Positions 3,032 through 36,297 of a DNA stretch of 36,297 nt are shown here, piece by piece. The DNA is from a bacterium (lineage in GTDB: Bacteria; Bacteroidota; Ignavibacteria; Kapaibacteriales; UBA2268), in assembly GCA_024711295.1 (NCBI GenBank), contig JANJTB010000025.1:1-36297 (forward strand), read 5' to 3'. The notes beneath the pieces are model-generated. The model was not told the DNA's origin. It saw nothing but the letters and a program-made list of their open reading frames with translations, and did no database searches. The stretch's first letter is position 1. Every line of letters starts with the position of its first letter. A program made the translations under genes and the position numbers.

Positions 3032-3619
3032 ATGAAAATATTGTGTTTAATTTGCTTTGCTCTTTTAACCCAAATAGAAAAATTTGATAAAGAAGAGTTT
3101 GAGCCCTATTTCTTTAGAAATAATTTTAATGATGATGCTTATGTTGAGGCAAATTTCTTTTGTTTTTTTGGAATTGGTGATAGATTTGGTGATAGTAGTG
3201 ATGTTCCTTTAAAAACTTTAGATACCAACCTATATAAAGGAAAAAAACTTGGTTTTATTATTTCTGATTTATCAAGTAAATATATGAAATTTTGGGATTT
3301 TTCTTCTAATGGTGTTTTAGGTTATGGTAATGTTGATTTAAGTAAACGTACACATTTTGCATTTATATTTAAATATAATGACACTTTAAGTTTAAGTATT
3401 GTCGGAATGATTGCAAAATCTGAGTGGTTTAAAGAAAAATCAGACACATTAGCTATTAAAAGAATCTATGAAATTGATAAATTTATTATATTACCTGTAT
3501 TACATAATATGAAAGTACGTTATAGGCAGATTATCGAGCGTATGAAAACAAACAAAAACCCTAAGTTAAAAGAACAACTCGAAAGTTTGTTAAAGGATTA
3601 TCCGGAAGTTGCTAAGTGA
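3032..3619 (+). CDS. Paralogue of the exported protein at 715, candidate orphan immunity protein
   Basis: At 195 residues it is exactly as long as the protein at 715-1302. The two share PYFFRNNF, a GDSSD segment, DTNLYKGKKLG, RTHFAFIFKYNDTLSL, IAKSEWF and the end YPEVAK. The N-terminus (MKILCLICFALLTQ) looks like a short signal peptide but is weaker than in the paralogue. No family is recognised. No toxin tip is encoded immediately upstream. The next recognisable sequence downstream is an RHS core fragment beginning at 3642, 23 bases after the stop. The position fits an immunity gene left behind when its tip was replaced, an arrangement known from RHS loci, but the role is inferred from position and duplication only. 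Confidence 0.6.
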   Translation: MKILCLICFALLTQIEKFDKEEFEPYFFRNNFNDDAYVEANFFCFFGIGDRFGDSSDVPLKTLDTNLYKGKKLGFIISDLSSKYMKFWDFSSNGVLGYGNVDLSKRTHFAFIFKYNDTLSLSIVGMIAKSEWFKEKSDTLAIKRIYEIDKFIILPVLHNMKVRYRQIIERMKTNKNPKLKEQLESLLKDYPEVAK

Positions 3620-13850: not shown

Positions 13851-13946
13851 TTACATCTTCACAAACTTCTCGAAAATGGAACAAGCTCCATTGCTACCAA
13901 CAATTTTCATAAAATACAATCCTTCAGAAAGATGTGTTACATCAAT
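13851..13946 (-). pseudogene. Orphan T9SS sorting-domain tail
   Basis: On the minus strand 31 codons and a stop read IDVTHLSEGLYFMKIVG, then SNGACSIFEKFVKM. Apart from the inserted SNGACSI, this is the end of a CTD, comparable to IDVSNLASGLYFVKIG and VEKFVKM in the gene at 18823. The codon before it is a stop and no gene body is attached. The insert is encoded by an imperfect palindrome (AATGGAACAAGCTCCATT, 13875-13892). The 3' end of the Bro-N gene overlaps its first two codons, which suggests a recombination junction. Confidence 0.75.
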
Positions 13947-14781
13947 TTAAAAGTTTTTTTCTAATTTCTTTTTCAGGTAGAGCTTTATAATTTGTTTTGG
14001 TTGATACTTTGCGACCAGATTTCTTCTCTAATTCCTTTCTTGCATTTCCAGAAATTTCTCCACCTTGTTTGGCGGCAACTTTATTTTCTTCAAATCCAAT
14101 AGCATCTTTATTTTTAGCGATTTCAGTTGTTGATGCCTCGCCAAGCATTATAAAAATCAATTCTAAATCTGTCATATGGTCACGAAGATTATCATTTGGC
14201 TTTTCTAATTCTTTGAATTGCTTATATTCCACAGGTGTCATCCCAAAAGTTGCTTTGCTTATTTCAGATGTTAATATTGCATATTCTTTATGTTCTTTTA
14301 CGCCTCGATTTTTCCATTCATTTGTCAATTCATCTCTTACAGCGATTCCGCGAATTCTCTTTTCTATCCATTCATCGCTATAACCTTTTGCTGAATAAAT
14401 TTCGCGGATTCTTTTTTGAGCTAATTCTGGATTTTCAATTTCTTCCAAACGTTCATAACCTACTTTCGCTAACCATCGCTTAAATGGTTCTGCTTTTGGA
14501 GATGGAATAGATTGAATAATTCTTAACAGTCCTTCTACATTTGCTGCTTGTATTTTACGTTTTTTCCCATCAGCCGCAATCATTTCAACTGGGGTACAAA
14601 TTGTACCCCAGTTGGATTTTAACTCTGAATCTCTTGAAAGAATTCTTTTTATGTATTGTTTAACATCAACAGTATCAGTTAAAACTTCGACTACATCCTG
14701 AACAGAAAAATACCATTTCTGCTCTTCTTCGTTCCAAGTTGAACGAATATTTTTTGATTCAAATAATTTAATATTGCTCAT
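13942..14781 (-). CDS. Bro-N domain protein (phage antirepressor-like)
   Basis: The ATG at 14781 (MSNIKLFESKNIRSTWNEEE) is preferred. An upstream extension of 19 codons is possible but gives an unlikely hydrophobic leader, and AAGAAAA precedes 14781. Residues 1-110 form a Bro-N domain: WYFSVQDVVEVLTDTVDVKQ, YIKRILSRDSEL, then IPSPKAEPFKRWLAKVGYER. Bro-N proteins are DNA-binding and common in phages, phage-like islands and some bacterial chromosomes. Residues 130-279 are helical and charged, with DELTNEWKNRGVKEHKEYAI and KNKDAIGFEENKVAAKQGG, as in the larger bacterial members. No phage genes lie nearby. The gene sits between an intact and a broken T9SS sorting domain, so it looks like a single-gene insertion. 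Its function in a bacterial host is not known. Confidence 0.85.
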   Translation of the reverse strand: MSNIKLFESKNIRSTWNEEEQKWYFSVQDVVEVLTDTVDVKQYIKRILSRDSELKSNWGTICTPVEMIAADGKKRKIQAANVEGLLRIIQSIPSPKAEPFKRWLAKVGYERLEEIENPELAQKRIREIYSAKGYSDEWIEKRIRGIAVRDELTNEWKNRGVKEHKEYAILTSEISKATFGMTPVEYKQFKELEKPNDNLRDHMTDLELIFIMLGEASTTEIAKNKDAIGFEENKVAAKQGGEISGNARKELEKKSGRKVSTKTNYKALPEKEIRKKLLN

Positions 14782-14838
14782 AATTTTCTTAAATAAAAAG
14801 TTATCATAACTAAAAAGTAAAAATAAGAAAAATTGCAA

Positions 14839-16230
14839 TTAATATTTTATAAACTTTACAACTTTATCACCAATCCTCACAAAATATACTCCTGCAGGCA
14901 GATAGGAAACATCAATTTTTAAATTCCCCTCTTGGAGGGGTGGCTGCATAGCAGACGGGGTGGTTTGCATCTCCACTCCCATCACATCATATATTTCTAT
15001 GAAAGCAATGGGGCTTGCCCCATTGTTGTTTCCATTGGAGCAAGCTCCAATGCTTTCCAAATTAATAGTTATGTATTCAGTTGTAGGGTTGGGATAAATG
15101 ATATAATTACTGTGATTTGTTTCATAGTTAATTACAGAAGTTGGGTTTTCATACATCCATATTCTCCCCTTTAAATATTCATTTGCTATTATTTTATAAG
15201 TATGCCTTTTAGGAAATACTAATTTTGTAAAAGCATCCATTTCAGTCCATGGGAAAACTTCATTTATCCAGTTCTTACCACCATCAGTAGTACGCCATAT
15301 TTTTCCCTCGCCATAAGCTAAACCTTCATGACGATTTGCAAAGTATATTCCACCTGTTAAACCAGATTCAGGATATAATATTGTATCTAATTGAGTCTCC
15401 CAAGTTTGCCCACCATCCGAAGTATAATATATTACATCATAATATTTTTGATTACCTGCTCCCACTCTTCCAGCAAGCCATCCTTCATCCATACTTATAA
15501 AAAAAGGTTTGAAATCTGCATATTTGGGAATTTTTGAACCAAGATTCCAATTTTTTCCTCCATCTAAGGTTTTTACTAAAGTATAGAATTTATTTGATGA
15601 ATTTTTGTAATTATAAATAACAGCAATTAAACTATCCTTGCCTACTAAATCAACACTGATCTCAGTTGTTCCATAATTTTCTTGTTCGCTACCAAAATAG
15701 TTAAGATTAAGTTCTTCCCAATCAAGACCACCATTATAAGTTTTAAATAAGGTCTTATAACCACCAAATGCAATACCGTAATTTTCATCTAAAAATTTTA
15801 TTTTAATTATATCTTTTTTTGTATTCAATTGAGTAGAATCCCAAGTATATCCACCATCTCTTGAAATAGTTATTTGACCTTCAATATGACCGACTACCAC
15901 AAAATTTGGTGTAACAAAATCAATGCTACGCGCAGCTTTAAATTTTTGGGATTTTGTATCTATCCATTGTCCCTGTTCGTTAAAAATTTTAGTTGCAGTA
16001 TCTGCATAAGCAATGAACCAATTACTGCCACCATCAGTTGTTTTGATATACATCGAACCAGTGGCACCTGGACTTGCTAAAGATATACAATTCAAGCTAT
16101 CTGCACAATCCAAATCCCATTGTGGCAAGCCCTGATTACCCGGATAATGTTTATATACTTGAATCCATTGGCTATTTGTACTTGCAAAAGCAAAAATAAA
16201 AACAAAAAGTATAAGGTATAATATTTTCAT
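14839..16230 (-). CDS. T9SS-secreted Asp-box/YCF48-like propeller protein
   Basis: A signal peptide (MKILYLILFVFIFAFASTNS) is followed by a beta-propeller with six Asp-box motifs: TTDGGSNW, SRDGGYTW, TYNGGLDW, TLDGGKNW, TSDGGQTW and TTDGGKNW. These resemble the BNR/sortilin and YCF48 families. In Bacteroidota such proteins are usually surface proteins of unknown ligand. The CTD (about residues 375-463; IIYPNPTTEYITINLESIG ... GVYFVRIGDKVVKFIKY) directs T9SS export. The CTD contains two in-frame inserts made by repeat DNA: GACSNGNNNGASPIA between strands, and TTPSAMQPPLQEGN after VMGVEMQ. The gene precedes two further T9SS genes on the same strand, but gaps of 39 and about 160 bases make one transcript uncertain. 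Confidence 0.88.
   Translation of the reverse strand: MKILYLILFVFIFAFASTNSQWIQVYKHYPGNQGLPQWDLDCADSLNCISLASPGATGSMYIKTTDGGSNWFIAYADTATKIFNEQGQWIDTKSQKFKAARSIDFVTPNFVVVGHIEGQITISRDGGYTWDSTQLNTKKDIIKIKFLDENYGIAFGGYKTLFKTYNGGLDWEELNLNYFGSEQENYGTTEISVDLVGKDSLIAVIYNYKNSSNKFYTLVKTLDGGKNWNLGSKIPKYADFKPFFISMDEGWLAGRVGAGNQKYYDVIYYTSDGGQTWETQLDTILYPESGLTGGIYFANRHEGLAYGEGKIWRTTDGGKNWINEVFPWTEMDAFTKLVFPKRHTYKIIANEYLKGRIWMYENPTSVINYETNHSNYIIYPNPTTEYITINLESIGACSNGNNNGASPIAFIEIYDVMGVEMQTTPSAMQPPLQEGNLKIDVSYLPAGVYFVRIGDKVVKFIKY
14922..14963. repeat. REP-like element inside the T9SS CTD-coding sequence
   Basis: The element begins AATTCCCCTCTTGGAGGGG and ends in CGGGGTGG. It is a variant of the 46-base element found twice outside genes at 34926-34971 and 35045-35090. 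Inside it are two inverted repeats (CCCCTC/GAGGGG and CTGC/GCAG). Here it is in frame in the CTD of the gene 14839-16230 and encodes TTPSAMQPPLQEGN. Confidence 0.8.
15006..15052. repeat. Two adjacent 20-base palindromes inside the CTD
   Basis: CAATGGGGC-TT-GCCCCATTG (15006-15025) and CATTGGAGC-AA-GCTCCAATG (15033-15052) are perfect hairpins separated by 7 bases. They encode in frame the GACSNGNNNGASPI insert of the CTD. A third, imperfect member lies at 13875-13892 in the orphan CTD tail. Confidence 0.85.
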
Positions 16231-16268: not shown

Positions 16269-18662
16269 CTAAATTTTAATAAACTTCTCTACTCTATCGC
16301 CAATTTTTACAAAATAGACACCGGGCGCGAGATTGGATACATCTATTCGCTGCTGTAGAGACACAATATTTTGAGTTCCAACAGGGGTGGAATGTGTTTT
16401 GACTCCCATCAAATCAAGTATTTCAATAGATACGACACCCTCAACCTCATGCTTAAGCGTGGGATTGATAGAAGATAGATTTATTGTGATATACTCCGTA
16501 GCTGGGTTTGGGTATAAGCACATCATAGAACCTTTTTTACTTTGTTGCATTATGATGTTTGAAAGCGAACTATTATTCGTAAGAAGGCCTATATCACTTG
16601 CCAAATGTAAGTTCATATTATAATCAATAGAAAAATCGTAGATTGGAATTTTTAGGTTAGGTCTGTCATTTATATTCAAATCAAACATTTCAAATCTACC
16701 ATTTCCTGTATATTTGTACAAAAATCCTTTATCATCTGAAGCCCAAATATCATTATCCATTAAATTTTTTATTCTGGTAATAGTGCCGTTTATACCTGAT
16801 TTTGCTAAGTCGAGCTGTTCGATTTTCAAAATTTTTTTGTTTATCCTAAATAAAATCTTTTCATAACTGCCGTACAATAACAATTCATCTGAATTTTGGT
16901 CGTACAAAATGATATTAAAATGAACTTTTTTACCATTATGAACAAGGCTTACAACTTTTGATTCATACTCAGAGAATTTAATTATTGATTCTGAAGTAAG
17001 AATCCAGGGAGTAAGATTTTTATCCAAAGCAATGCTATATGGAATTGTATCCTTAGGGAATGAATATATTTCAAAATTTTCAAAATAATAGTCAGGCAAA
17101 CCTGCATTATTTTTATCGAAATGCTTTTGAGTTTTATTGATTATATCATAAATCGTCAGATAAGTATTCAATGAGTCTTTGTGATAATTGTATTGCCCCA
17201 ATGCCGCAATATACTGACCATAAAAGTCATAGTTTATTATTTCAGGTCGTGTCTTGTCACTAAATCCGAAGTCAATCTGTGTGATATTATTGCCTTCCCA
17301 TGTCAGTAGATAATTATCTCTTTGTGTATAATAAACAGTTCCGTCATCTAAAGTTTTGAATGTGCTGCTGTGATCATTTAATCTTTCGAATTTATTATCC
17401 ATTTCAAGATACAAGCCGCTCGTACCATTCATTGTACCTCTGAAAATTCCTTTACCATTACGATTTATTTCCACATCAGAGATTGTTGAAAAAGGGAAGT
17501 CATTTGTAAAGAAGACACTCAGACTATCTCCATCAACAGAAATTATGCTTTCTTCGGATGAAAGTCCTTTTGATATTTTTAGATAGAGTTTCCCGTTCAA
17601 ATTCAATAGCTTTTCGATTCTTGTGTTAATTTCGATATTCAGACTGCTAAATGATATACGTACCCAGCCGGTATCCTTTAGTAAGTAAAAGTTTGAGGCC
17701 GACCTTGCCACTACAAACTTGCTGTCCAAAACATTGATTTTATCTATCCAGGAATCTTCTGTATAACTCAAATGGGGTGTCACTTCTCCAGTAGCGATGT
17801 TGTAGCTAACGGGGAATGCTGAGAAGTCTGTTTCATCGCCTACTGTGTACCAAATATTTCCTTTATCATCGCCGTATATCTTTTGTGATGGCATCGGAAG
17901 ATGCTTCTTGTAATTAAAACCAAAGGCAAATTTCCATTCATTATTTTCATATCTGTAAATCTCATACATGTTTTTCCAAAAAACCGTATTGCCATAGGGG
18001 TAAATAGAATAATCACCTTTTTGACGCGGATACTCATCTATAGTATCAAATACTTTATTAATTCGGGAATCTTTAACAATAGCTATACAAACCATCATGT
18101 CAGACATATCTTTGTTGTAATATGTTGTTTTACTTTCTGAATTGTCGTTGTAAATCACCCATACATTGTTTGGAGTGATTGTCAAATCCCAGATATCAAA
18201 ATTATAATTTATTGAATCTGCTAGATTTATGGTTTTCCATTGCCCATTATCAAAGTAGTGAACTTTCTGCGATGAGAATGTCCAGATTCTACCTTTAGAA
18301 TCTTGATATAGATTCCGTGAATCTGTATCGGGGTAATTCTGACATATTGCATCAGTGACTGAGATCTTTCCATTCCTGTACAGACATAATCCGGATTTTG
18401 TACTTATAAGCATCATGCTGTCGTTCATTTTCAGAAAAGAATTGAAATTATTATTCGGTAAATCAGAATTGACAACTGAATAATGATAATAATCGTTTGT
18501 TTTGATATTTACTTTGGTCAATCCATTGCTTCTGCCAAGAAAAATCTCATCATTAATTTGTAGATGAGTATTAAAGTTACTTGTCGAAAATCTATGTTGC
18601 CACTCAGCAAAAATATTCCTACAATTGATAAGAAATAAAAATAAAATTATCATGATTTTCAT
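16269..18662 (-). CDS. T9SS-secreted propeller protein (Reg_prop-like)
   Basis: The ATG at 18662 starts a signal peptide (MKIMIILFLFLINCRNIFA), with AGGTG about 8 bases upstream; a GTG at 18671 is less likely. The body of about 700 residues has repeated short strands with motifs such as LYQDSKGRIWTF, IYGDDKGNIWYTV and LNLNGKLYLKISKG, resembling two-component-regulator-propeller (Reg_prop) repeats. No histidine kinase domain follows. The last 85 residues are a CTD (YPNPATEYITINLSSIN ... GVYFVKIGDRVEKFIKI). The role is unknown beyond being secreted. The CTD DNA is almost the same as that of the next gene upstream (18823-21201), although the bodies are unrelated. Confidence 0.82.
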   Translation of the reverse strand: MKIMIILFLFLINCRNIFAEWQHRFSTSNFNTHLQINDEIFLGRSNGLTKVNIKTNDYYHYSVVNSDLPNNNFNSFLKMNDSMMLISTKSGLCLYRNGKISVTDAICQNYPDTDSRNLYQDSKGRIWTFSSQKVHYFDNGQWKTINLADSINYNFDIWDLTITPNNVWVIYNDNSESKTTYYNKDMSDMMVCIAIVKDSRINKVFDTIDEYPRQKGDYSIYPYGNTVFWKNMYEIYRYENNEWKFAFGFNYKKHLPMPSQKIYGDDKGNIWYTVGDETDFSAFPVSYNIATGEVTPHLSYTEDSWIDKINVLDSKFVVARSASNFYLLKDTGWVRISFSSLNIEINTRIEKLLNLNGKLYLKISKGLSSEESIISVDGDSLSVFFTNDFPFSTISDVEINRNGKGIFRGTMNGTSGLYLEMDNKFERLNDHSSTFKTLDDGTVYYTQRDNYLLTWEGNNITQIDFGFSDKTRPEIINYDFYGQYIAALGQYNYHKDSLNTYLTIYDIINKTQKHFDKNNAGLPDYYFENFEIYSFPKDTIPYSIALDKNLTPWILTSESIIKFSEYESKVVSLVHNGKKVHFNIILYDQNSDELLLYGSYEKILFRINKKILKIEQLDLAKSGINGTITRIKNLMDNDIWASDDKGFLYKYTGNGRFEMFDLNINDRPNLKIPIYDFSIDYNMNLHLASDIGLLTNNSSLSNIIMQQSKKGSMMCLYPNPATEYITINLSSINPTLKHEVEGVVSIEILDLMGVKTHSTPVGTQNIVSLQQRIDVSNLAPGVYFVKIGDRVEKFIKI
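16283..16517 (-). repeat. CTD-coding repeat, copy 1
   Basis: This is the 3' coding part of the gene 16269-18662. By eye it matches 18835-19070 nearly base for base over long runs (for instance around GATTGGATACATCTATTCG and CTCATGCTTAAGCGTGGG). Differences cluster near the very C-terminus. It includes a near-palindrome (CATGCTTAAGCGTG). Confidence 0.85.
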
Positions 18663-18822
18663 AATAAACACCTATCTGCCTTATTCTAAAATTATTCAAG
18701 CAATTTCACGGGCTTGTATTTCAAAAAGCTGCTAAGTGAAAGATTTAATTTGTATTAAATATGACCTGTATAAATTCAGCTATTCAAGTTATAAATAGTA
18801 TTTACAAGATTTCTATTATTTT

Positions 18823-21201
18823 CTACATCTTCACAAACTTCTCTACAAATCCACCAATTTTTACAAAATATAAACCTGATGCGAGATTGGATACATCTAT
18901 TCGCTGCTGTAGAGACACAATATTTTGAGTCCCAACAGGGATGGAATGTATTTTGACTCCAATCACATCAAGTATTTCAATAGATACGACACTCTCAACC
19001 TCATGCTTAAGCGTGGGGTTGATAGAAGATAGATTTATTGTGATATACTCCGTTGCAGGATTTGGGTATATGTTGGCTATGAATTCTTTATTTAAAATTA
19101 TATTGCTTGGGGCATCCTTGTCTTCTTCAGAGAAAACGATACCGCCGGGTTTATAAACAGTGTTGACAAGTTTCATTTTATTCGACCAAACCTCGTCGCC
19201 ACATTCATTATAGAAACGATACTGATAAATTCCGGGCTTTAGGTTCGAGGATTTACCACCAAGAACAAATCCATAATCGGTATAGTTATTAATATTTCTT
19301 TTTTTAGTACCTTTTTGCACAAGTTCGCCATCAATGTACAGCTCAAAATGTAGCTCGAGTCCTTTCGAAATTACTGTTGCAGAAACTATTCTCATATAGT
19401 CTCCTTCATTTGCATGGTAGTCCGGCAGGTCACGTATCATATATGGCTTTTCGATAATCTCGACGTACATTGTGCCAAGGAATCTTGCTTCTCCTGTTTC
19501 AATGTTAGTAGCCCAAATATAATAATCACCTTCATCAGCCGCAATTGTATTTCTGATTGTTAAGATGTTTTTATCTGTATTAATGAATCTCGAACTTTCG
19601 TTAATGGTATCATTGTCTTTAATCCAGGTGAATCTATAGTTATCTCCAAGGTCATCGGCTTTCAATATCAGGTCATTACCTAAACAAGCACCAACATCAT
19701 TGTACCCATAGGCAACATACATTGTATCAGACCATGTTTCGCCACACTCGTTTGATATTCTGCAAACATAAGTTCCCACAAAACTAGCACTATCAGAGCC
19801 ACCCCTGAAATCCTTGTCGAATGCCTTATAAATGAGTTTTCCATTTCTGAAATATTCATAAAAACAAGGTGGGAAGTTACTTACTCTTACCTGGAGATAT
19901 GCCAGTCCCTGCTCGTAGTTTCGTCTTCCACGTATTGACCAGTATTTTGTCTGATACACTATTTCGGGCTTTCTTTTTGGCTGGTACTCAAAACTTGGCG
20001 AGCGTTTAGAAATATTCTGGTTGATGAGCGTTACTAAACAGTAGTAATGCTGTTGGTCTTCTTTGAATGTTCCATTTCTTATGATTAGAGTAGGGGTTTT
20101 TGTACCGATAAATTTTTCGGACTCTCTGATAATTTTGAAGCCGGTTTTATACCATTGATATTTGAATTGAGCTCCTGCAACTGATGTTTCTACTTTTATC
20201 GTAAAGATTGCATCCTTACCCTCGCAGGAATAGAAATTCGGTGTTTCCTTGGTAATTCTGAACATACCGGCATCACCGAGCATAAAACTTGTAGTGTCTG
20301 TGCCGCACATACCCTCGGCTATACAACTATATGTAGCGCGATCGCTCCATACAACATCCTTTATCTGAAAACACTGTGTTTGCGAGCCGGTTATTCTATG
20401 ATTGTCAAAAAGCTTAATCTTTATGTTGTCTATACGATATCTGATAGGATTCTGTGAAATAATTACAGTAACTGTAGTATCTTTGTACCATTGGAACTTA
20501 ACGTAATCATTCTCATAATCAAAGTTGGTATGAAGAGGTGCAACAACTCTGACGGTATCCATGTGTTCCCATTCCACATCGTCAGGTTTTGAAGCGAATT
20601 TGGTTGGTGTTGCCACATATACGGCAATTGGCTCTGACTTTACAGTTCCGCAAGGTTCATCACCTGTTATTTCGAATGAGTATGTGCCTGATGCCGAGTA
20701 ATCGCTATTTTCGATGATGAGTTTTGTGCTTGTTTCATTATTGATAAGTACACCATCTTTGTACCAACGATAGCTATTCCTAAAGCCACCTGCTTCGATG
20801 CTCAGTATTATCGTTTCGCCACTACACACAATTGCCGATCTGGTCTGATTGATTATTTCTGGTTTACTTTTGATTAAAATACTGTCAATTATGGCAAAAT
20901 CATCCGGATTATGTTTGTTGAAGACTTTGAATTTCACATGGACATCCATCAGAGAATAATCATTCGGAGTCCATTGCAATGTATTGCCTATAGAAGATAC
21001 ACCATACATTCTGATTTTATCCTCAGAGCTGTATGTATAAGCTTCGATATTATAATTTGAAGCGTTCGAGCTCAGAGCAAAGGTGATAGGACTATCGCTA
21101 CAAAATGCCTGATTGGCAACCGGAGATTCTACCTGAACTAATGAGAAGGAATATTTAGTAAATATAAATAAACAAACAAAAAATGTAATTGTTTTACCCA
21201 T
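18823..21201 (-). CDS. T9SS-secreted protein with multiple Ig-like domains
   Basis: The ATG at 21201 starts a signal peptide (MGKTITFFVCLFIFTKYSFS); a TTG 12 bases earlier is rejected. The body contains about six Ig-like domains, each with a W or Y core and a GxYxC-type end: SGTYSFEITGDEPCG, RATYSCIAEGMCGTD, QQHYYCLVTLINQN, VGTYVCRISNECGE, EGDYYIWATNIETG and PGIYQYRFYNECGD. The Cys pairs may form disulfides in the oxidising periplasm. The last 85 residues are a CTD (IYPNPATEYITINLSSIN ... GLYFVKIGGFVEKFVKM). Surface adhesion or scaffold function is likely but not shown. No enzymatic motif is visible. A region of about 200 bases upstream of the start (21202-21413) contains no gene and presumably the promoter. 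Confidence 0.85.
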   Translation of the reverse strand: MGKTITFFVCLFIFTKYSFSLVQVESPVANQAFCSDSPITFALSSNASNYNIEAYTYSSEDKIRMYGVSSIGNTLQWTPNDYSLMDVHVKFKVFNKHNPDDFAIIDSILIKSKPEIINQTRSAIVCSGETIILSIEAGGFRNSYRWYKDGVLINNETSTKLIIENSDYSASGTYSFEITGDEPCGTVKSEPIAVYVATPTKFASKPDDVEWEHMDTVRVVAPLHTNFDYENDYVKFQWYKDTTVTVIISQNPIRYRIDNIKIKLFDNHRITGSQTQCFQIKDVVWSDRATYSCIAEGMCGTDTTSFMLGDAGMFRITKETPNFYSCEGKDAIFTIKVETSVAGAQFKYQWYKTGFKIIRESEKFIGTKTPTLIIRNGTFKEDQQHYYCLVTLINQNISKRSPSFEYQPKRKPEIVYQTKYWSIRGRRNYEQGLAYLQVRVSNFPPCFYEYFRNGKLIYKAFDKDFRGGSDSASFVGTYVCRISNECGETWSDTMYVAYGYNDVGACLGNDLILKADDLGDNYRFTWIKDNDTINESSRFINTDKNILTIRNTIAADEGDYYIWATNIETGEARFLGTMYVEIIEKPYMIRDLPDYHANEGDYMRIVSATVISKGLELHFELYIDGELVQKGTKKRNINNYTDYGFVLGGKSSNLKPGIYQYRFYNECGDEVWSNKMKLVNTVYKPGGIVFSEEDKDAPSNIILNKEFIANIYPNPATEYITINLSSINPTLKHEVESVVSIEILDVIGVKIHSIPVGTQNIVSLQQRIDVSNLASGLYFVKIGGFVEKFVKM
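18835..19070 (-). repeat. CTD-coding repeat, copy 2
   Basis: Counterpart of 16283-16517, in the gene 18823-21201. The middle 150 bases differ by only a few substitutions by eye and keep the same insert sequences (NPTLKHEVE and VGTQNIVSLQQR). Confidence 0.85.
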
Positions 21202-21413
21202 AACACACCACAAAATTCAATTTTTGGCACAGACATATTATATATGACAGTTGAAAACAGATTTTGTCACAAAAAAAATGCGTTTTTCTTGTATTTTATA
21301 ATTTTTGTTTTTTTACTCTACTCTAATGTGTGCCTGTAAATTAGAAAAGAAATTAAGGAACTTATTAACACTTTTGCTTTAAATAAGTATGAATTTACTT
21401 GTGGTAATAATAA

Positions 21414-34819: not shown

Positions 34820-34925
34820 GCCCTTTTAGCTAATCCTGATAATATTCTACTTCACCACCAATTTCTCAATTCCCCTCTTTTGGGAATTTAAACCTCAATC
34901 CACCACCAAAAACTTGGGTTCCTTC

Positions 34926-34971
34926 AATTCCCCTCTTGAGGGGTGCCTGCCTTAGCAGGCGGGGTGGATGG
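34926..34971. repeat. REP-like element, intergenic copy 1
   Basis: A 46-base element starts AATTCCCCTCTTGAGGGG and ends CGGGGTGGATGG. It contains inverted repeats CCCCTC/GAGGGG and CCTGC/GCAGG. It is the same as the copy at 35045-35090 by eye and related to the in-gene copy at 14922-14963. Confidence 0.88.
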
Positions 34972-35044
34972 TTTTCTACAACTCTAAATTGCCCTCTTTT
35001 GGGAATAAAAACCTCACTCCAACACCAAAAACTTGGGTTTCTTC

Positions 35045-35090
35045 AATTCCCCTCTTGAGGGGTGCCTGCCTTAGCAGGCGGGGTGGATGG
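35045..35090. repeat. REP-like element, intergenic copy 2
   Basis: Second copy of the 46-base element, 119 bases after the first and unchanged by eye. Confidence 0.88.
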
Positions 35091-35175
35091 ATTTCACACT
35101 GTTGCCAAATATTTTAACAAACATCTCCATCTTGCAACCAATTTCTCAATTCCCCTCTTTTTGGGAATTTAAACC

Positions 35176-36297
35176 TCACTCCAACACCAAAAACTTGGTT
35201 GTGTGTGATTTGTTCCTATCCTGTATATGTAGCAGATAAACTCCATTCTGTAATTGAACGGGTATTTCTATAATATCTTTAATATGATTTATCCTATTTT
35301 GATAAACTAGATTTCCTTTTATGTCACTAATTGTAAGATTAATAGTTGGTAAAATACTTTCGATTCCTGAAATCTTTAATATACCCTTACGATATTCAGT
35401 TATGATTTTTTGAATCGGGTCATTTGGCTCGTCAACACTAACGGAGTTTAGGATTTTGTTGAAATCGAGTGAAAATAATTGTCTTATTATTTGATTTGCG
35501 CTAGATAAATAATAATAATCCGTAATTATAGAATTATGAATTTTATTAAATTGTGGAGTTCTTGATGAATATAATTCAGATTTGAAAATTTCTTTTTCAT
35601 TATCAATATCATATATCGCTCCAACGCTGCTATTTATACCATAAGATGATAAAAATAAATGACTTTCATTGATAAACCCAACATAAGATTTGCCGGAAAA
35701 TGGAGTGATTACATCATTAAATTCCCATTTTTTGTATGGTGTCTCGCAGGTAAATAAAGTTGCCTTAGGACTTCCACCATTATTTCCATACCCCACATAC
35801 TTAGCATTTTCGGAGAATTGAATGAACTCAATTGTTCTGCCTTCGGCTGGTACATCTTCAAGTTCTCTAATTAATTTCATTGTTTGTGCATCATAGAGGT
35901 AGAAGTGGGTGTGATAATCATCTTCAAAATCCCTTTGAGCTATTGCGATAAATCTGCCATCGTTTGATACTTTCATAGCAGTTGTTGAATTTTGGTTTGT
36001 TGGTATGCTGTATTCAGTGATTTTATTGTCGTTTATGTTAAATGTTACAATACCCATTGACATTTTCATGACTATCACATCATTTCGCGGATTTAGAAAT
36101 TGTGCATACAAACCAGTAGGTACATTATCATTAATTATTTCCAATGATTCATAATCAATAACTTTATGACTTATCATAATCCTTAAACCATCACTCGAAA
36201 CAATAATATCTTCAGACGGAGTGAATGGTATGCGTCTCACTAATTCACCTGTAAGTCCGTTAAGTTCAATAACATCAGCTTTATTTCGATCACCGAT
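35176..36297 (-). CDS. T9SS-secreted WD40/YVTN-like propeller protein (5' partial)
   Basis: The frame stays open to the right edge of the window: 19 further codons precede the GTG at 36240, including VIELNGLTGELVRRIPF. The gene is therefore cut by the window edge and the real start lies beyond it. The visible part has propeller-like strands (EDIIVSSDGLRIMIS, AMKVSNDGRFIAIAQRD, IQFSENAKYVGYGNN) and a phrase typical of WD40 repeat proteins (HFYLYDAQTMKLIRELEDVP). The last 70 residues are a CTD variant (INLTISDIKGNLVYQNR ... NGVYLLHIQDRNKSHTTKF). Two extra copies of its 3' end lie in the repeat tract downstream. The ligand is unknown. Confidence is high for T9SS export and moderate for the propeller. 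Confidence 0.8.
   Translation of the reverse strand: MGDRNKADVIELNGLTGELVRRIPFTPSEDIIVSSDGLRIMISHKVIDYESLEIINDNVPTGLYAQFLNPRNDVIVMKMSMGIVTFNINDNKITEYSIPTNQNSTTAMKVSNDGRFIAIAQRDFEDDYHTHFYLYDAQTMKLIRELEDVPAEGRTIEFIQFSENAKYVGYGNNGGSPKATLFTCETPYKKWEFNDVITPFSGKSYVGFINESHLFLSSYGINSSVGAIYDIDNEKEIFKSELYSSRTPQFNKIHNSIITDYYYLSSANQIIRQLFSLDFNKILNSVSVDEPNDPIQKIITEYRKGILKISGIESILPTINLTISDIKGNLVYQNRINHIKDIIEIPVQLQNGVYLLHIQDRNKSHTTKFLVLE

Follow-up and report, generated by a model that had tools for sequence, protein, structure and literature searches.

REP-like palindromes in frame in three loops of T9SS sorting domains in a family of Kapabacteria

As far as the source was available to us, the Rickettsia palindromic elements (RPE) are about 150 bp long, form ten families and lie in unrelated metabolic genes (PMC10969869). 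The GTAG- and CGTC-tagged REPs are reported, in the accessible part of their description, to be mostly intergenic and 3' of genes and sometimes intragenic, the proteins concerned being unrelated and several of them belonging to DNA repair (PMC3733652). In Porphyromonas gingivalis, five of 19 BrickBuilt MITEs adjoin a gene with a T9SS sorting domain (CTD), and their position is always intergenic according to the excerpt at hand (PMC4596501). PARCEL is presented, in the available sections of the paper, as a coding palindromic repeat of Mollicutes and others (PMC2996958), and perfect inverted repeats of up to 284 bp occur within protein genes of nematomorph mitochondria, as stated in the extract accessible to us (PMC6649704). 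Two accounts of the sorting domain itself were likewise available only in part: in Porphyromonas CTDs, loop Lb3b4 and the C-terminus are relevant for export, the other loops are variable and an insertion in Lb5b6 is neutral (PMC11285876); the CTD is cleaved by PorU (PMC4804311).

The host gene and the E46 family

The window, by which the whole analysed stretch of 36,297 nucleotides is meant, is contig C3 of an assembly totalling 3.45 Mb. The product of its gene 14839-16230 matches PF18962 with 44.4 bits (cut-off 27) at residues 378-457 and TIGR04183 with 29.2 bits (cut-off 23) at residues 378-462 of 463, and it meets the criterion for a type A sorting domain, the match being C-terminal and above both curated cut-offs. 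The sequence-only reading had proposed that a variant of a 46-base element (E46) and two 20-base hairpins lie in frame within this domain, and the coordinates, the two family matches and the in-frame readings all bear this out (Table 1). E46 occupies Lb4b5, and a nested pair of palindromes, each with 9-bp arms around a 2-nt centre (18 of 20 bases paired), occupies Lb2b3. The strong mRNA hairpin that had also been foreseen is reproduced by folding, which predicts -29.5 kcal/mol for the loop-1 RNA. The restriction to one gene did not hold, as loop Lb2b3 is occupied by a different palindrome, in decayed form, in the CTDs of the window genes 16269-18671 and 18823-21213.

Table 1 Repeat elements in the window and the gene that carries three of them. 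Strand is given as + or -, with a dot where none is assigned.
Feature	Positions	Strand
Host gene, YCF48/BNR-like passenger and T9SS type A sorting domain (CTD, residues 378-462)	14839..16230	-
CTD coding segment, seven predicted strands b1-b7	14842..15099	-
E46 (46-base-family element) within loop Lb4b5, read in frame as TTPSAMQPPLQEGN from the minus strand	14926..14963	+
Palindrome CAATGGGGCTTGCCCCATTG, loop Lb2b3, part of NNNGASPIA (minus-strand reading)	15006..15025	.
Palindrome CATTGGAGCAAGCTCCAATG, loop Lb2b3, part of SIGACSNG (minus-strand reading)	15033..15052	.
Decayed palindrome INPTLKHEVE, loop Lb2b3, CTD of gene 16269-18671	16440..16469	-
Decayed palindrome INPTLKHEVE, loop Lb2b3, CTD of gene 18823-21213	18994..19023	-
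Imperfect copy of a palindrome, reading YFMKIVGSNGACSIFEKFVK, at the Lb6b7 position of a CTD fragment without a start	13874..13893	.
E46 copy between genes, lying downstream of the CTD gene 35176-36240(-)	34930..34967	+
Second intergenic E46 copy, within a 113-nt unit that recurs with a spacing of 119 nt (34864-35095)	35049..35086	+

The AlphaFold2 (AF2) model of this CTD was obtained with 58 aligned sequences and has a pLDDT of 74.3, low in loop 1. It predicts strands at 17-19, 26-30, 50-54, 60-65, 76-80, 87-93 and 96-102, and from these positions loops 1, 2 and 3 were identified as Lb2b3, Lb4b5 and Lb6b7. A Foldseek search with the model returned T9SS substrate CTDs at the top, 8glk_D (E 2.1e-3) and 8qb1_A (E 4.0e-3), the matches being weak and none reaching 1e-3. 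The search and the seven-strand model are consistent with the seven-stranded b-sandwich fold without being strong support for it.

The genic copy of E46 aligns with the two intergenic copies of the window, and all three belong to one family, of which a gapped pattern detects 22 copies in the genome against none for a reversed-pattern control. With the strict pattern, the sole copy inside an ORF is that of gene 14839-16230; the other 21 are not fully contained in ORFs of at least 80 aa, two of them overlapping an ORF end at contig C40 and several adjoining CTD genes or contig ends. Where gene 14839-16230 reads TPSAMQPPLQEGN, five aligned CTD rows of the same genome read HPVS(Y/F)AATPQDGN or NSVSYAATPQDGN, in the other frame. 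E46 is thus read in two frames across CTDs of one genome, and is therefore conserved as DNA.

The window as a whole has 26 listed hairpins with an arm of at least 8 and a loop of at most 6, compared with 1-17 in 20 shuffles; since shuffled sequences also yield such hairpins, a single 9-bp arm is weak evidence alone, and recurrence decides. Some other repeats were noted. A palindrome with 14-bp arms, CAACTGGGGTACAAATTGTACCCCAGTTG, at 14586-14614 is in frame in the BRO-N domain ORF 13942-14838(-), where it reads NWGTICTPVE, and two ORFs at 715-1302 and 3032-3619 contain DNA stretches that are 70-71% identical at a spacing of 2317 bases. Beyond whole CTD genes, 3' fragments of CTDs with a loop-3 palindrome are present at 13855-13955 of the window and at C21:44578-44667, C22:7761-7838 and C28:1264-1328; the fragment on C22 sits directly after an unrelated ORF, a pattern as if CTD ends had been scattered as repeats.

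Palindromes in related sorting domains

In the genome of the window, 222 CTD candidates were collected, of which 150 were scored and 148 read. A ten-row profile (A1) built from the insert-bearing sub-group of CTDs was searched against 60 genomes including this one, 29 of which gave a match at E ≤ 1e-10, and against a collection of named genomes, from which the best 80 loci of 176 relatives were taken. These best-scoring 80 of 176 derive mainly from Kapabacteria or 'Ignavibacteria' MAGs, some being labelled Desulfobulbaceae or Chloroherpeton; 39 loci were designated Kapabacteria-type by similarity, several of them bearing other names, and among the non-Kapabacteria-type loci of the same 80 a hairpin was present in 1 of 42 CTD entries. 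Genome G020 was placed in the family of the window's genome, and A1 gave no match at E ≤ 1e-10 in 24 genomes of the same order that belong to other families, a result that concerns the profile match only, the CTDs themselves being unseen. As A1 was built on insert-bearing CTDs, the rates given below, including 76 of 289, are not unbiased and do not apply to all CTDs.

A score-based scan of the profile-matching CTDs, in which the named loci are again the best 80 of 176 relatives, disclosed 116 hairpins in 81 of 296 entries. After merging of overlapping loci, 109 strong palindromes remained in 76 of 289 distinct CTDs from this genome and its relatives (Kapabacteria-type MAGs), with 62 in loop 1, 38 in loop 2 and nine in loop 3. 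No hairpin centre fell outside Lb2b3, Lb4b5 and Lb6b7, neither among the 116 entries nor among the 109 merged ones. The earlier proposal that CTD loops are insert sites is upheld, as all inserts found by the scan, in the CTDs of this genome and of its relatives, lie in strand connections predicted from the AF2 model. The palindromes avoid Lb3b4 and the C-terminus, and Lb5b6 is likewise without any. Insert sizes are mostly 18-46 bp, the nested pair taking 57 nt and the longest insert 67 nt. The scan misses E46 itself and decayed copies, and, with clusters correlated from paralogue to paralogue, its counts do not represent independent events.

When the comparison is confined to close CTDs (A1 E ≤ 1e-18), 33 of the 44 entries from G001, a congener, contained at least one palindrome, as did 4 of 24 from the window's genome and 2 of 8 from G002; for G001 and G002 the retrieved CTDs alone were counted, out of 56 and 23 matches. 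Palindrome copies in the window's genome are often decayed, INPTLKHEVE in two window genes being an example, and a sub-group of its CTDs has other palindromes in the same places, as at C26:122147 with 16-bp arms in two loops. In an early scan at a score of at least 24, five hairpins were found in the 148 CTDs of this genome and seven in 339.7 kb of sampled coding sequence, none of the seven having at least 45% GC.

The CTD coding DNA contains 116 hairpins in 67.3 kb, against 7 in 184.5 kb of passenger coding sequence just upstream and 7 in 336.6 kb of codon-shuffled CTDs, and chance or codon bias as the source of the CTD hairpins was rejected on these two controls. The 200 nt past the stop codons hold 112 hairpins in 58.2 kb, of which 41 have a 10-mer common to the CTD-loop set, while the remaining ones include ordinary terminator-like hairpins. 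A sample of G001 was assembled from twenty 20-kb stretches picked by coordinate (400 kb); palindromes with a CTD-set 10-mer number five in 1.38 kb of CTD, four in 59.7 kb of intergenic DNA and none in 339 kb of other ORFs, the five CTD-family palindromes all lying in one 20-kb stretch (L398), and hairpins of other kinds number 15 in other ORFs and 22 between genes. The same kind of sample from the window's genome gave none in CTDs (174 nt only), two intergenic and one in other ORFs, all AT-rich and plausibly due to chance.

Copies outside genes, as expected from the first inspection, exist both for E46 and for the CTD-loop palindromes. In the retrieved loci, CAAAGGGCTT was located at 21 CTD sites, 11 intergenic sites and one site in another ORF (some are double-counted, and one CTD is a 41-aa fragment), and CAAAGGGCTTMAGCCCTTTG has 28 forward and 26 reverse matches in G001, mostly the same sites on both strands. 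With the 22 copies of E46 and with CAAAGGGCTTMAGCCCTTTG in G001, the REP criterion of a 20-40 bp palindrome in many copies is met. The extragenic share varies by family: 21 of the 22 E46 copies are extragenic or overlap an ORF end, and the G001 sample has five palindromes in CTDs compared with four between genes. Three G001 loci (L297, L298 and L304) also display a composite repeat 3' of CTD genes, consisting of CAAAGGGCTTCAGCCCTTTG and then AGATGTCC...GGACATCT, 43 nt start to start.

Single linkage by 9-mers sorted the palindromes into 28 clusters, 15 of which have more than one member; of the singletons, UBA1184 and C31:93525 at the least may be chance. One cluster can occur in different loops, the GGAGCTTGCTCC element being present in loops 1 and 3 and the GTAG family in loops 1 and 2. 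Both sides have changed in 8 of 15 stem pairs of the PSEG/TSEV family, a number reached by none of 500 shuffles, and in 7 of 12 stem pairs of the GTAG family (5 of 500 shuffles); on a further measure for the GTAG family, how many pair types occur, 65 of 500 shuffles did as well. As the rows were chosen by the hairpin scan, pairing is built in and only the paired differences count as evidence. Together with the two frames of E46, these paired arm changes confirm that the inserts are conserved as DNA and not merely as protein. Members of a family mostly use one and the same frame even though several are open, which suggests that many copies spread as coding pieces. Hydrophilicity was tried as a rule for the frame and rejected, the frame in use exceeding the average hydrophilicity of the remaining open ones in 45 of 76 distinct hairpins.

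Turnover, recombination and origin of the inserts

Orthologues were paired by reciprocal best passengers. L183 and L184 (passengers 95.3% identical) have loop 1 in common and different palindromes in loop 2, and the palindromes of L218 and L225 (85.6%) are unlike in both loops. L216 and L191 (91.5%) differ in both loop 1 and loop 2 while agreeing closely in b1-b2 (40 of 42 nt) and b5-b7 (73 of 78 nt); this difference is a local change. Loop 2 of L216 is E46-like, and L216 passes no hairpin threshold. Gene 14839-16230 and L184 (60%) again have loop 1 in common and differ in loop 2. A comparison of L308, which has palindromes, with L212, which has no hairpin, did not give a clean empty site, the whole CTD having diverged (passengers 73-79%).

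Copying of CTDs is also apparent. At L290 (G001:C2:592000-599000), neighbouring genes with unlike passengers have near-identical CTDs, the identity stopping about 10 bases past the stop codon, which amounts to gene conversion limited to the CTD. The 33 G001 CTDs whose loops were classed display 13 combinations of loop-1 and loop-2 type. No significant association links the type of loop 1 to the strands next to it (94 and 68 of 1000 permutations), but it is tied to b5-b7 (0 of 1000), and that of loop 2 is tied to b3-b4 (0 of 1000) and b5-b7 (4 of 1000), so that CTD copying accounts for part of the pattern. Local change and copying of CTD pieces both occur.

Matches to PF01797 (Y1_Tnp) were few in several genomes, with one partial match in the window's genome, three in G001, none in G002, 14 in G006, four in G012 and one each in G020 and G026. 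Five of 18 stretches around these matches hold a palindrome with a CTD-set 10-mer (L374, L375, L385, L388 and L391), and G002 has CTD palindromes (2 of 8 CTDs read) without any PF01797 match. The genomes compared gave no instance of excision, of target-site duplication or of a polymorphic insertion. Support from transposases is weak, and RAYT-driven mobility as the main cause is left open and not adopted here; recombination from CTD to CTD is at least as likely a vehicle as transposition, CTD copying being directly visible. The initial suggestion that mobile or REP-like DNA is becoming protein is retained for repeats that are REP-like, in frame and also extragenic, while their transposition has not been demonstrated. 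The only IS200-like transposase match of the window's genome at E ≤ 0.001 lies at L387 (G000:C11:202500-205500), where Y1_Tnp at 203700-203906 is flanked on both sides, in the same frame, by portions of a methylase ORF (Eco57I/N6_Mtase type) at least 1000 aa long. Within the nested part, a palindrome, ACCCCAAGCTAAAGCTTGGGGT, and a sequence close to the NPTLKHGV family are likewise in frame.

Lb2b3, Lb4b5 and Lb6b7 probably serve, in this family of Kapabacteria, as translated residences for REP-like palindromes that arrive rarely and are then redistributed by CTD recombination. In-frame residence at three loops, several intergenic matches, differences between orthologues and free combination among paralogues were directly observed. 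The loops are inferred to accept inserts because they are away from the parts reported to be essential for export, Lb3b4 and the C-terminus, and are presumably not sensed by the translocon; with the CTD reportedly removed after export, only frame-keeping inserts in these loops would be expected to survive. New palindromes may arrive rarely, by REP- or MITE-like insertion or by hairpin-templated copying. Recombination involving CTDs and their 3' flanks would then carry them from one to another of the many CTD genes and exchange them, and would be promoted by breaks that the hairpins provoke. A loop-cassette system, in which the three loops act as dedicated acceptors, hairpin DNA is both the cargo and the cause of the breaks by which one CTD takes over a loop of another, and the outer loops are continually reshuffled, is a tentative extension that we regard as doubtful; if true, the main genomic niche of some repeat families would be inside translated protein and not between genes.

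The hairpins might instead be selected as RNA, for message stability, for slowed translation before the CTD or as backup terminators, and reside in the loops because the protein cost is least there. The 41 of 112 hairpins in the 3' flanks (58.2 kb) with a 10-mer of the CTD-loop set, the paired changes of the arms and the stable fold predicted for the loop-1 RNA of gene 14839-16230 (-29.5 kcal/mol) speak for such selection, but covariation cannot separate a DNA palindrome from an RNA hairpin and there are no expression data. As 20 of the 24 close CTDs of the window's genome lack a strong hairpin, and inserts turn over between orthologues, selection as RNA appears unlikely to be the explanation.

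A few ancestral insertions, inherited through CTD duplication with no continuing acquisition, would fit the occurrence of one loop type in many CTDs of one genome (INHRVNPMVD, 10 G001 entries), and the visible CTD-exact conversion, the mostly constant frame of each family and the strand-loop associations are in line with such inheritance. The existence of 28 clusters opposes it, as do orthologues that differ in inserts with passengers 86-95% identical and, in L216/L191, with conserved flanks, and the lack of a significant tie of loop-1 type to adjacent strands; inheritance without new arrivals was judged improbable. Ordinary loop variation at the protein level, palindromic in appearance through codon usage or chance, can hardly be entertained: a single 9-bp arm is indeed not rare in an AT-rich window, but codon shuffles produced 7 hairpins in 336.6 kb compared with 116 in 67.3 kb, the same palindromes occur between genes, and E46 is read in two frames. 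Translated residence of rarely arriving palindromes, followed by CTD recombination, remains the explanation that we prefer.

Comparison with known palindromic repeats

The 76 CTDs constitute a natural series in which repeat-like palindromes have been turned into protein at known places in the structure and in which close orthologues provide examples of a swap; they make the acquisition of selfish-DNA inserts by proteins directly testable. The inserts resemble a natural insertion scan of the T9SS signal and agree with the Porphyromonas CTD mutants, as far as these are covered by the available part of PMC11285876. Recurring peptides such as NKGLQPF, PSEGLKPSEG and VGAIHELPLQ can be repeat DNA and not functional motifs.

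With RPE the CTD inserts have in common that they are in-frame palindromic repeats in protein genes, present elsewhere in the genome too; the in-frame criterion is met, whereas the size of about 150 bp is not, and RPE differ further from the 28 clusters found here, which are concentrated in three loops of a single domain and turn over from orthologue to orthologue. The GTAG-tagged REPs are also short palindromes, and one family in the relatives has GTAG...CTAC ends, but the palindromes of gene 14839-16230 and the E46 and CATTGGAGC families of its genome have no GTAG tag, and a link to RAYT is not established. PARCEL is likewise coding DNA with dyad symmetry spread among genes, but is one 25-residue motif in tandem arrays, while here single, mostly unrelated palindromes are located in loops. 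The nematomorph palindromes are longer and mitochondrial, and a tie to one domain was not found in the portion of that source available to us. Among the matches listed in a literature search limited to open-licence PMC papers, no report of palindromes inside T9SS sorting domains was present.

Of earlier findings that connect repeats with sorting domains, the closest is that of the BrickBuilt MITEs, hairpin-rich repeats beside T9SS sorting-domain genes, which the 3'-flank repeats described here fit. The P. gingivalis elements are different, much longer and never interrupt coding, whereas the present inserts lie within the CTD and in frame. In-frame palindromic repeats are already known elsewhere, and what is new here is their position inside the domain and in three loops only, the many families and the turnover.
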